NCBI GenBank assembly: GCA_009785175.1
Contig: WQWV01000006.1
Location: 1 to 36,264 of the forward strand
DNA from: Alphaproteobacteria bacterium
GTDB taxonomy: Bacteria; Pseudomonadota; Alphaproteobacteria; Rs-D84; CACZYB01
Direction: 5' to 3'
DNA length: 36,264 nucleotides
Shown: in pieces, positions 13,462 through 15,599 of the stretch
How positions within the stretch are numbered: the first letter of the stretch is position 1
Layout: each line of letters starts with the position of its first letter
The notes under the pieces: model-generated
What the model was told of the DNA's origin: nothing
What the model saw: the letters and a program-made list of their open reading frames with translations, nothing else
Databases searched by the model: none
Position numbers and translations under genes: made by a program

Positions 13462-15201
13462 CTACAACTCCGCACTCTTGCCTGCGATTTTTTCACGCAT
13501 CGACGCTATGAATTCGTCAAGCTTGATCCCGTTGATCTGTTTCCCATCGCGCGTGCGAACCGAAACCGTGCCGGCGGCTTCTTCTTGTTCGCCAAGCACG
13601 ATCATATACGGCACCTGGGCAAGCTGGGCTTCGCGGATTCGTTTCTGCATACTATCGGACGAATACATCTTTTCGACCTTGAATTCGCCCATCGCATCGG
13701 CCACGCTCTCGGCATAGCCGTGAAGCTTGTCGGAAATAGGAATCACGACGGCCTGCACTGGCGCAAGCCAAAGCGGGAACTTGCCGGCGACATGCTCTAT
13801 AAGTATTCCCATGAAACGCTCCAACGAGCCGAACAGCGCGCGGTGCAGCATGATTGGACGACGCTTCTCGTTGTCCTTGTCGATATAGTGTATGTCGAAA
13901 CGCTCGGGCAAATTCATGTCGAATTGAAGCGTCCCGCACTGCCACTCGCGCCCGATTGCGTCGGTAAGCGCGAATTCAAGTTTCGGGCCATATATCGCGC
14001 CCTCGCCGGGGAATAGCTCGTGGTCGTATCCGCCGACCTTCAAAGCGTTGGCAAGCGCCGCCTCGGACGCATCCCATACCTCGTCGGAACCAAGGCGCAC
14101 CTCGGGTCGCGTCGAAAGCTTTATTTTGATTTTCGCAACGTCGAAACCGAAATCCTCGTATACGCTGAGGATAAATTTTATGACCTTGACACACTCGGAC
14201 TCGACCTGCTCGGGCATACAGAATATGTGGGCATCGTCCTGAGTGAATTCGCGCACTCGCATAAGTCCCATCAAAGAGCCCGAGGATTCGTAGCGATCTA
14301 CCTTGCCGAATTCGGATATCTTAAGCGGCAGGTCGCGATAGGATTTGATTCCCTGTTTGAAGACGAGCATTCCGCCGGGACAGGATACAGGCTTGACCGC
14401 GAACTCTCCATCTTCTTCGTTAACGCGTGCGTAATACATGTGATGCGCATACATGCTCCAATGACCCGAAAGCTCGAACATTTTTCGCGTGTTTACGGAC
14501 GGAGTGCTGATTTCGACATAGCCCTCTTTATCCTGGCGTGCGCGCATATAGTTAATCATGCTCTGGAACATACTCCAGCCTTTGGGATGCCAAAACACCC
14601 CGCCCGGAGAAAATTCCGGCTCGAAGTGGAACAGATCCATGGCCGCGCCGAGTTTTCTGTGGTCGCGCTTTTCCGCCTCTTCCATCATGACAAGATGGGC
14701 GTCAAGCTCGGCCTTGTCGGCGAACGCATACGCGTAAATGCGTTGCAGCATTTTGTTTGCGCTATCGCCTTTCCAATACGCTCCTGCCACGCGGAAAAGC
14801 TTGAAAGAATCGCGCGGCAGTTCTTTCGAAGATTCGACGTGCGGCCCGCGGCACAAATCCACGAACCCGCGGAAGCCATAGGTGCAAATGGGCTCGCCGG
14901 ACTTGGCGACCTCCTCTATCCATTCAAGTTTATATGGCTCGGCCGCGAACGCCGAACGCGCTTCTACGGGCGTAAGGACGCGGTTTTCGAACTTTCCGCC
15001 GGATTTGATAAGCTCGCGCATTTCACGCTCGATCGCGGCGAAATCGTCCGGGCTGAATTTGTGTTCGGTGTCGAAATCGTAATAGAATCCGTGTTCGATA
15101 GACGGCCCTCCGGCGAACTTGGCGTCGGGGTATAGTTTTTTGATTGCCGCAGCCATAACGTGGGCAAGGCTGTGGCGGATTACATCAATGGGGTATGACA
15201 T
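13462..15201 (-). CDS. thrS: Threonyl-tRNA synthetase without the N-terminal TGS domain
   Basis: A 579-residue class II synthetase that charges tRNA-Thr. The protein begins directly in the editing domain: H10-x3-H14 and C117-x3-H121, the metal-type proofreading motif for Ser-tRNA-Thr, are at the N-terminus. The roughly 60-residue TGS domain of the usual 640-residue enzyme is missing. The catalytic core has V-S-C-P-G-G (zinc Cys), motif 2 R-x-R-E-F-T-Q-D-D-A-H-I-F-C and motif 3 H-R-A-L-F-G-S-L-E-R-F. The anticodon-binding domain is complete. ATG 15201 has AAAGGAC upstream, and a TGS domain cannot be added by extending the frame. A threonine-rich leader peptide and a REP palindrome precede it. 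Confidence 0.95.
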   Translation of the reverse strand: MSYPIDVIRHSLAHVMAAAIKKLYPDAKFAGGPSIEHGFYYDFDTEHKFSPDDFAAIEREMRELIKSGGKFENRVLTPVEARSAFAAEPYKLEWIEEVAKSGEPICTYGFRGFVDLCRGPHVESSKELPRDSFKLFRVAGAYWKGDSANKMLQRIYAYAFADKAELDAHLVMMEEAEKRDHRKLGAAMDLFHFEPEFSPGGVFWHPKGWSMFQSMINYMRARQDKEGYVEISTPSVNTRKMFELSGHWSMYAHHMYYARVNEEDGEFAVKPVSCPGGMLVFKQGIKSYRDLPLKISEFGKVDRYESSGSLMGLMRVREFTQDDAHIFCMPEQVESECVKVIKFILSVYEDFGFDVAKIKIKLSTRPEVRLGSDEVWDASEAALANALKVGGYDHELFPGEGAIYGPKLEFALTDAIGREWQCGTLQFDMNLPERFDIHYIDKDNEKRRPIMLHRALFGSLERFMGILIEHVAGKFPLWLAPVQAVVIPISDKLHGYAESVADAMGEFKVEKMYSSDSMQKRIREAQLAQVPYMIVLGEQEEAAGTVSVRTRDGKQINGIKLDEFIASMREKIAGKSAEL

Positions 15202-15221
15202 TTTAAGTCCTTTTTCTTCTG

Positions 15222-15249
15222 GTCATTCCGGCCTCCGAGCCGGAATCCA
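15222..15249. repeat. REP-like palindrome in the thrS leader
   Basis: Identical to the copies at 2198 and 8933. It lies between the leader peptide and the thrS ribosome-binding site, so it is part of the transcribed leader. Confidence 0.85.
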
Positions 15250-15298
15250 CTTAATTTTTAATATTATATGATAGGTGCGCGACGCGCAAGCGAAATTC

Positions 15299-15352
15299 TT
15301 AACCCTTTCGGGTAGTGGTGGTGCGAACGGCAAAGACAAAACGAATGTCCAT
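15299..15352 (-). CDS. Threonine-rich leader peptide of thrS (putative attenuator)
   Basis: A 17-codon open frame, M-D-I-R-F-V-F-A-V-R-T-T-T-T-R-K-G, with four consecutive threonine codons (ACC ACC ACT ACC, 15311-15322). It ends about 100 bases before thrS. The last Thr codon begins a hairpin, ACCC-GAAA-GGGT (15302-15313), and a second stem TGCGC/GCGCA follows. A strong promoter ends seven bases before the ATG, so the peptide is probably translated from a leaderless RNA. Runs of the cognate amino acid ahead of a synthetase gene are the hallmark of ribosome-mediated attenuation. I see no clear U-rich terminator, so the downstream mechanism (termination or RBS masking) is open. Confidence 0.65.
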   Translation of the reverse strand: MDIRFVFAVRTTTTRKG

Positions 15353-15359
15353 AGGACAT

Positions 15360-15388
15360 AATATATAGGGGGTTAAGGGAAATGTCAA
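15360..15388 (-). promoter_or_regulatory. Promoter of the thrS leader
   Basis: -35 TTGACA (15383-15388), 17 bp, -10 TATATT (15360-15365), seven bases before the leader-peptide ATG. A TATAAT at 15263-15268 with TTGCGC 15 bp upstream could be a weaker second start. Confidence 0.75.
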
Positions 15389-15531: not shown

Positions 15532-15590
15532 GTCATTCCGGCCTCGAGCCGGAATCCATGCCGACTGGATACCGGGTCAAGCCCGGTATG
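15532..15590. repeat. Double REP-like palindrome
   Basis: GTCATTCC...GGAATCCA (15532-15558), followed at 15570-15590 by a second palindrome ATACCGGG-TCAAG-CCCGGTAT. The same pair occurs at 35095-35154. Confidence 0.8.
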
Positions 15591-15599
15591 ACGGGAATG

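Follow-up and report, generated by a model that had tools for sequence, protein, structure and literature searches.

What does a run of four threonine codons do in front of the gene for threonyl-tRNA synthetase? The question is raised by a locus on the minus strand of a 36,264-nucleotide stretch of alphaproteobacterial DNA, referred to here as the window. An earlier note on this DNA had described a strong promoter, a frame with Thr codons, a hairpin beginning in the last of these codons, a second stem, a REP palindrome and the thrS ribosome-binding site, and all of these parts are indeed present. The reading that we favour, with a probability of about 0.6, is that the element is a leader-peptide control of thrS acting through codons cognate to the synthetase, and that it belongs to a set serving thrS, serS and, in one family, ileS. 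We consider the sensing part of this explanation very likely, on the evidence of comparison between genomes, whereas the output step, in the form that we propose below, has in our judgement no better than even odds.

The threonine-codon leader of thrS

All features of the window locus lie on the minus strand. The upstream promoter, P1 (TTGACA at 15388-15383 and TATATT at 15365-15360, 17 nt apart), has 11 of the 12 consensus bases, and its -10 box is separated by 7 nt from the A of the ATG of the leader ORF (15299..15352). This ORF, which is leaderless or nearly so, encodes MDIRFVFAVRTTTTRKG followed by a stop codon and has homologous leaders in 45 aligned regions. Its four Thr codons, ACC ACC ACT ACC, are read at 15311..15322, and hairpin 1 (ACCC-GAAA-GGGT, 15302..15313) overlaps the fourth and last of them and reaches the stop codon. 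Further downstream are hairpin 2 (TGCGC-GTC-GCGCA, 15276..15288), a second promoter-like element, P2 (15263..15289; TTGCGC at 15289-15284, 15 nt, TATAAT at 15268-15263), and the thrS Shine-Dalgarno sequence AAGGA (15208..15212). The thrS gene itself (13462..15201, with its ATG at 15201) encodes a threonyl-tRNA synthetase of 579 aa, identified by NCBIfam (TIGR00418, 643 bits against a cut-off of 383.65) and Pfam (PF00587, PF03129 and PF07973); the Pfam search gave no match to an N-terminal TGS domain in this protein. The REP-like palindrome ATTCCGGCTCGGAGGCCGGAAT (15225..15246), between P2 and the thrS Shine-Dalgarno sequence, is genome-specific and absent from the thrS leaders of relatives. 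Palindromes of this kind (ATTCCGG...CCGGAAT and related) occur in the thrS 5' UTR and again, at 15533-15597, in the intergenic region nearby. Another palindrome, ATGTCCTATGGACAT at 15345-15359, spans the predicted P1 start site and the leader start codon and was not seen in relatives.

The layout of this locus is more than a chance arrangement, being common to 45 thrS upstream regions, the window included, that carried a leader when those of 57 relatives were collected and read. In each of the 45 the leader ORF ends in a Thr run, nearly always followed by Pro-x-Gly-Val-stop or something near it; the typical peptide is ...TTTTTTPxGV and most end TTTT..PxGV. The complete genome G027 contributes one further thrS leader beyond these. 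Conservation of the Thr codons climbs towards hairpin 1: from the codon at the hairpin backwards, 45, 43, 40, 38, 33 and 25 of the 45 leaders carry Thr, the codon nearest the hairpin being partly fixed by the search pattern. The third positions of these codons vary (ACA 111, ACT 56, ACC 55, ACG 14). Alignment of the thrS upstream regions, which had been suggested as a way to check the proposal, shows variation in third positions and flanks but conservation, across the order, of the Thr codons and of the hairpin; the proposal thus passes the test by which it was to be refuted, a lack of conserved Thr codons in close relatives. A covariance model, R1, built from the leader and hairpin stretch of the thrS regions matches 171 of the 201 genomes of the window's order, a count drawn from related genomes and not from independent events. 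Among 385 genomes sampled in the class, about 380 of them from other orders, the same model matches a single one outside the order (G096, before thrS), and it matches only two of 399 sampled from the phylum, both of them from the window's order. In the window's own genome its single match (E 8.4e-4) is the leader site described above. One match outside thrS (L062 in G015) falls in a gene for a repetitive protein and was rejected as due to chance. A contig scan of 80 thrS loci of other proteobacteria yielded none with a convincing Thr-rich leader, and within the order leaders are missing from G047 and from some genera, so the element is dispensable.

The leader of the window is among the most divergent of the set in both peptide and hairpin sequence. 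Its ThrRS is about 70-72% identical to that of G047, which belongs to another family, and only about 60% identical to that of G001, from its own genus; since the protein is thus nearer to G047, this suggests that thrS has been horizontally replaced. G047, the closest ThrRS relative, has no leader, whereas the window has one.

In the 45 thrS leaders the ATG follows the -10 box by 6-10 nt (6, 7, 9 or 10), behind a promoter of the form TTGA-17-TANNNT in nearly all of them, and in most serS leaders (see below) the start codon is likewise close behind the promoter. This leaves no room for a ribosome-binding site of the leader. The promoter geometry, on which this point depends, supports the earlier proposal of a leaderless leader peptide, with the transcription start predicted at the leader AUG or directly beside it, and with no Shine-Dalgarno sequence.

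Exchange of the codon run between synthetases

Several genomes have a second R1 match, and most matches outside thrS sit before serS. The second tier of thirteen loci (L103-L115) comprises ten upstream of serS (the identity of serS at L104 being given by TIGR00414), one at thrS again (L103), one before a divergent ThrRS gene (L112) and one, L115, that was rejected as a chance match. The serS leaders, of which MKFKVIVFFLSSSSPVGE, MIRIFNFFSSSSSPLGE and MKTRFTFFSSSSSPLGE, each followed by a stop codon, are examples, have the frame and hairpin seen at thrS with Ser replacing Thr. Direct reading of serS upstream regions added some 20 further Ser leaders, mostly ending ..SSPFGVRI, with the ATG close behind a promoter. 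In residue content the thrS leaders are 32% Thr and 2% Ser, and the serS leaders 24% Ser and 3% Thr; at the two codons by the hairpin, Ser is found in 29 of 29 serS leaders, the last of the two being fixed by the search pattern. The hairpin changes along with the codons: part of the serS leaders have UCCCC-N4-GGGGA, with eight sequences in which the outer A-U pair of the thrS hairpin has become U-A. In two genomes of one family the same module stands before ileS with Ile codons (MFNQKIIYRIPCGGQ and MFQINQEIIFRIPVWGN, each followed by a stop codon), and other ileS leaders of the order (MKKAMIIIIK, MATKTIIIIE and others) are followed by a canonical GC-rich stem and TTTTTT. A scan of G027 that was blind to gene identity, and that looked for a start codon 5-11 nt past a promoter together with a codon run, ranked the thrS leader first and placed the serS leader among the next best; when no promoter was required, a second scan of this genome again picked out the thrS leader, together with the ileS leader, though mixed with many runs due to chance.

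That the codon run changes with the synthetase, Thr with thrS, Ser with serS and Ile with ileS, the enzymes having been assigned through NCBIfam, supports sensing of charged tRNA, and we regard this swap as the decisive evidence, of a comparative kind, that these elements sense the matching charged tRNA. The proposal of the earlier note that thrS is controlled by charged tRNA-Thr is in this way strongly supported, as far as comparison of genomes can support it. Short ORFs with codon runs do arise by chance in a genome, and the Thr run could then be a by-product, whether of low complexity or of a functional small protein, that senses nothing. We consider this very improbable: the leader is conserved at one gene in 171 of the 201 genomes, its third codon positions vary, and the switch to Ser or Ile along with the synthetase contradicts it directly.

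Several observations made alongside these concern other genes. The divergent second ThrRS gene at L112 (G561:C10:61382-61461), whose ORF is without the editing part at the N-terminus, is preceded by a Thr-run leader of its own; as in the G096 leader, the stop codon falls in the loop of the hairpin (ACCGC-CUAG-GCGGU). In two genomes, at L387 (1992-2067, minus strand) and L388 (1308-1383, plus strand), a tRNA-Thr gene (anticodon CGT) immediately precedes the Ile leader and ileS and is apparently co-transcribed with the leader. In G027, at 737715 on the plus strand (L193-L243), a short ORF, MIIIILQILLLSRQV, found 65 nt upstream of a valS-like gene may be either a leader or a product of chance. 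R2 matches with weak E-values outside synthetases (for example L162 and L152) were set aside as mostly ordinary gene terminators followed by a promoter.

Hairpins, P2 and the output step

If the leader senses charged tRNA, how would its translation be passed on to thrS? Comparison across the order shows conservation of the leader, of the tracking of codon run and synthetase, of the leaderless geometry, of both hairpins, of a U-rich patch and of the P2 spacing. Hairpin 1 has the form ACCCC-N4-GGGGU in thrS leaders, where it is built on the codons Thr-Pro-x-Gly-Val; 97% of its cells are paired, and there are double changes between the Thr and Ser families. A U-rich patch, defined as at least 5 T in 8 nt beginning within 6 nt of hairpin 1, follows it in 40 of the 45 thrS leaders (13 +- 3 in shuffles) and in 30 of 31 serS leaders. 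The distance between this patch and the core stem is about 5 nt. By a strict intrinsic-terminator rule, with the U tract 0-2 nt after the stem, only 11 of 45 thrS and 9 of 31 serS hairpins qualify, and that of the window does not. The earlier observation that there is no classical U-rich terminator is thus correct for the window and, by the strict rule, for most relatives, but must be qualified by the conservation of the offset patch.

A per-sequence arm search tested against shuffles found hairpin 2 in 40 of 45 thrS leaders, compared with 3.9 expected and a maximum of 10 in 500 shuffles, with 16 distinct stem sequences. RNAalifold applied to the thrS alignment recovered only hairpin 1, because hairpin 2 shifts register. 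Hairpin 2 lies within the spacer of P2, which in relatives reads TTG(C)NN-17-(T/A)ATAAT and begins 5-9 nt past the leader stop codon in 44 of 45 thrS leaders; its spacing is 17 in 36 of 45 and 16-17 in 42 of 45, in a search that permitted TTG to -10 spacings of 15-18 only. The TTG to -10 spacing hardly changes, whereas hairpin 2 lies at varying distances from the -10 box. This fits a promoter P2 and a hairpin that is separately constrained, since a P2 transcript would not contain hairpin 2. If so, hairpin 2 would be relevant in the P1 transcript. Both the conserved element P2, with hairpin 2 in its spacer, and the conserved U-rich patch of the relatives go beyond what had been noticed before. 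A search for mutually exclusive structures, suggested earlier as a check, found none: individual folds gave two independent hairpins and no recurrent alternative pairing that could serve as an antiterminator, and the classical two-structure switch is consequently missing. Since ileS in the same order uses a classical terminator, missing machinery does not account for the lack of one at thrS and serS.

We propose the following model. RNA from P1 would start at or within about 3 nt of the leader AUG, so that a ribosome would begin on the 5' end. When Thr-tRNA is ample, the ribosome would pass the Thr codons and depart at the stop codon, and hairpin 1 would form, or re-form, on the nascent RNA. 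When Thr-tRNA is scarce, the ribosome would wait at one of the Thr codons. Its mRNA channel would then enclose the 5' arm of hairpin 1, as the usual footprint of about 12 nt downstream implies, and hairpin 1 could not form. Hairpin 1 and the U-rich patch together would be the off signal, most likely a weak intrinsic terminator or a hairpin-stabilised pause; its removal by the stalled ribosome would let RNA polymerase continue into thrS, and P2 would be the source of basal transcription. We infer that both promoters are used and that ribosomes stall on the leader. A ribosome at the stop codon would cover hairpin 1 as well, and the model therefore needs fast release. The thrS leader of G096, which is from another family of the class, has the same design with a better U tract: it encodes MRNFIETQINTTTGLTTTTTA followed by a stop codon, and its hairpin (ACCGC-UUAG-GCGGU) overlaps the Thr codons and is followed by ACAAUUUCUUUUU. 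This clearer U tract points the same way as the role of terminator or pause that we ascribe to hairpin 1.

An output at the level of translation has to be weighed against this model. In translation attenuation of the erm/cat type, pairing to the 5' part of the leader would mask the thrS ribosome-binding site until a ribosome stalled on the leader released it. The minimum-energy fold of the window looks just so, with AUGGACAUUCGUUUUGUCUUU paired to the thrS Shine-Dalgarno sequence and start codon. We subjected 45 leader-to-thrS RNAs to partition-function folding, with and without a simulated stalled ribosome and with synonymous leader shuffles. In the window, pairing between the Shine-Dalgarno sequence and the leader was 0.94, against 0.27 in synonymous shuffles, and total Shine-Dalgarno pairing fell from 0.95 to 0.35 on simulated stalling. 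Across the set, however, the natural leader exceeded its synonymous shuffles in only 19 of 45 cases, with a mean leader-Shine-Dalgarno pairing of 0.22 against 0.14, and simulated stalling in the 45 leaders shifted mean Shine-Dalgarno pairing only from 0.56 to 0.48. Sequestration that is strong in the window and not in the set is not the conserved mechanism, and transcripts from P2 would in any case escape it, so that we consider translation attenuation unlikely.

A stalled ribosome could also act on the fate of the RNA: from its position near the 5' end, where the leaderless ORF would place it, it would keep Rho, RNase E or RNase J off the P1 transcript; the hairpins would then be processing or protection elements and not terminators. 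The absence of a canonical terminator agrees with such a Rho-dependent or mRNA-stability output, as does the AU-rich and largely unstructured 5' UTR that follows the two short stable hairpins. It leaves unexplained, however, why a U-rich patch is conserved just past hairpin 1 and why the cognate codons are best conserved beside the hairpin, and we give it a small but appreciable chance.

The near-fixed placement of P2, by which hairpin 1 would halt a polymerase over the P2 -35 box, allows yet another reading, in which transcription from P1, together with its stalled or moving ribosome, governs the access of polymerase to P2, itself the source of the main thrS mRNA. By the same token a polymerase paused at hairpin 1 would itself block P2, and many serS leaders have no P2-like element directly after the stop codon. 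Nor are hairpins in spacers a general feature of promoters in G027, where spacer palindromes as a general promoter motif were rejected (52 against 48.5 expected). A hand-over between promoters is accordingly quite unlikely in our view. Returning to attenuation at hairpin 1, its boldest version is that a ribosome stalled on a leaderless ORF works straight on the hairpin embedded in the codons, with neither an antiterminator nor a canonical terminator, and in this way adjusts how much each of two stacked promoters contributes; to this we give a fairly low probability. If true, it would describe a minimal attenuator that has been re-aimed between synthetases, in an alphaproteobacterial order of small genomes, by changing a codon run and its base-paired partner.

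Comparison with known systems of synthetase control

The textbook examples of synthetase control are the T-boxes of Firmicutes and the feedback by ThrRS in E. coli. The T-box riboswitch and the E. coli thrS translational operator control aminoacyl-tRNA synthetase genes, including thrS, in other bacteria, but they do so by binding uncharged tRNA or ThrRS and not through translation of a leader. A comparison with Rfam turned up nothing at gathering score anywhere in the window; at E <= 10 the leader had matches of chance level only, and so, at E <= 1, had the loci of four relatives. The literature searched, which mostly did not extend to subscription papers and so is weak evidence, did not describe leader peptides of thrS or serS for Alphaproteobacteria. 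A 2010 study by Lopatovskaya, cited in PMC4833913, reportedly deals with attenuation in operons for amino acids and aminoacyl-tRNA.

Close in principle are the ribosome-mediated attenuators of amino acid and synthetase operons, such as E. coli thrL, trpL and pheM-pheST, which share with the present element a short ORF, successive codons for the amino acid that the downstream gene handles and a hairpin beside the regulatory codons. Unlike them, the element described here has no leader Shine-Dalgarno sequence, no canonical U-tract terminator and no visible antiterminator; its hairpin lies inside the last sense codons, a second promoter-like element follows directly downstream, and its targets are thrS and serS. 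Judging by leader and terminator sequences, classical attenuation is also used in the window's own order, at ileS, where leaders (L383, L384, L386-L388, L390 and L391) likewise place Ile codons before the cognate synthetase but have a canonical terminator (e.g. GGGCGC...GCGCC.. TTTTTTT) and no codon-embedded hairpin. A leaderless leader is known from another alphaproteobacterial attenuator, trpL of Sinorhizobium meliloti, whose transcript (rnTrpL) begins with the ATG of the leader ORF; it differs in having Trp codons before trpE(G), a classical terminator and antiterminator, and a biosynthetic operon rather than a synthetase as its target (PMC7298713). Overlap of regulatory codons with a candidate terminator hairpin, followed by poly-U runs, has been described for actinobacterial ilvB leaders, along with trpS and leuS attenuators in Streptomyces and cys leaders with no obvious terminators; the ilvB leaders differ from the present element in phylum, in genes and in the poly-U that follows their terminators (PMC1262725).

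The present set gives a little-studied alphaproteobacterial order a predicted sensor of charged tRNA for essential synthetase genes. The swap from Thr to Ser, with its compensating change in the hairpin, amounts to an experiment by nature on the requirements of such a sensor, and the presence of a canonical terminator at ileS and not at thrS or serS draws attention to the output step. The leaders also provide short, recognisable signatures for annotation and are good candidates for leaderless translation. Leader peptides with cognate codons are a textbook kind of control; what is new here, against the papers searched, is that a leaderless start is joined to a hairpin that lies within codons and lacks a canonical terminator, to a further promoter-like element and to a codon run exchanged between synthetases.
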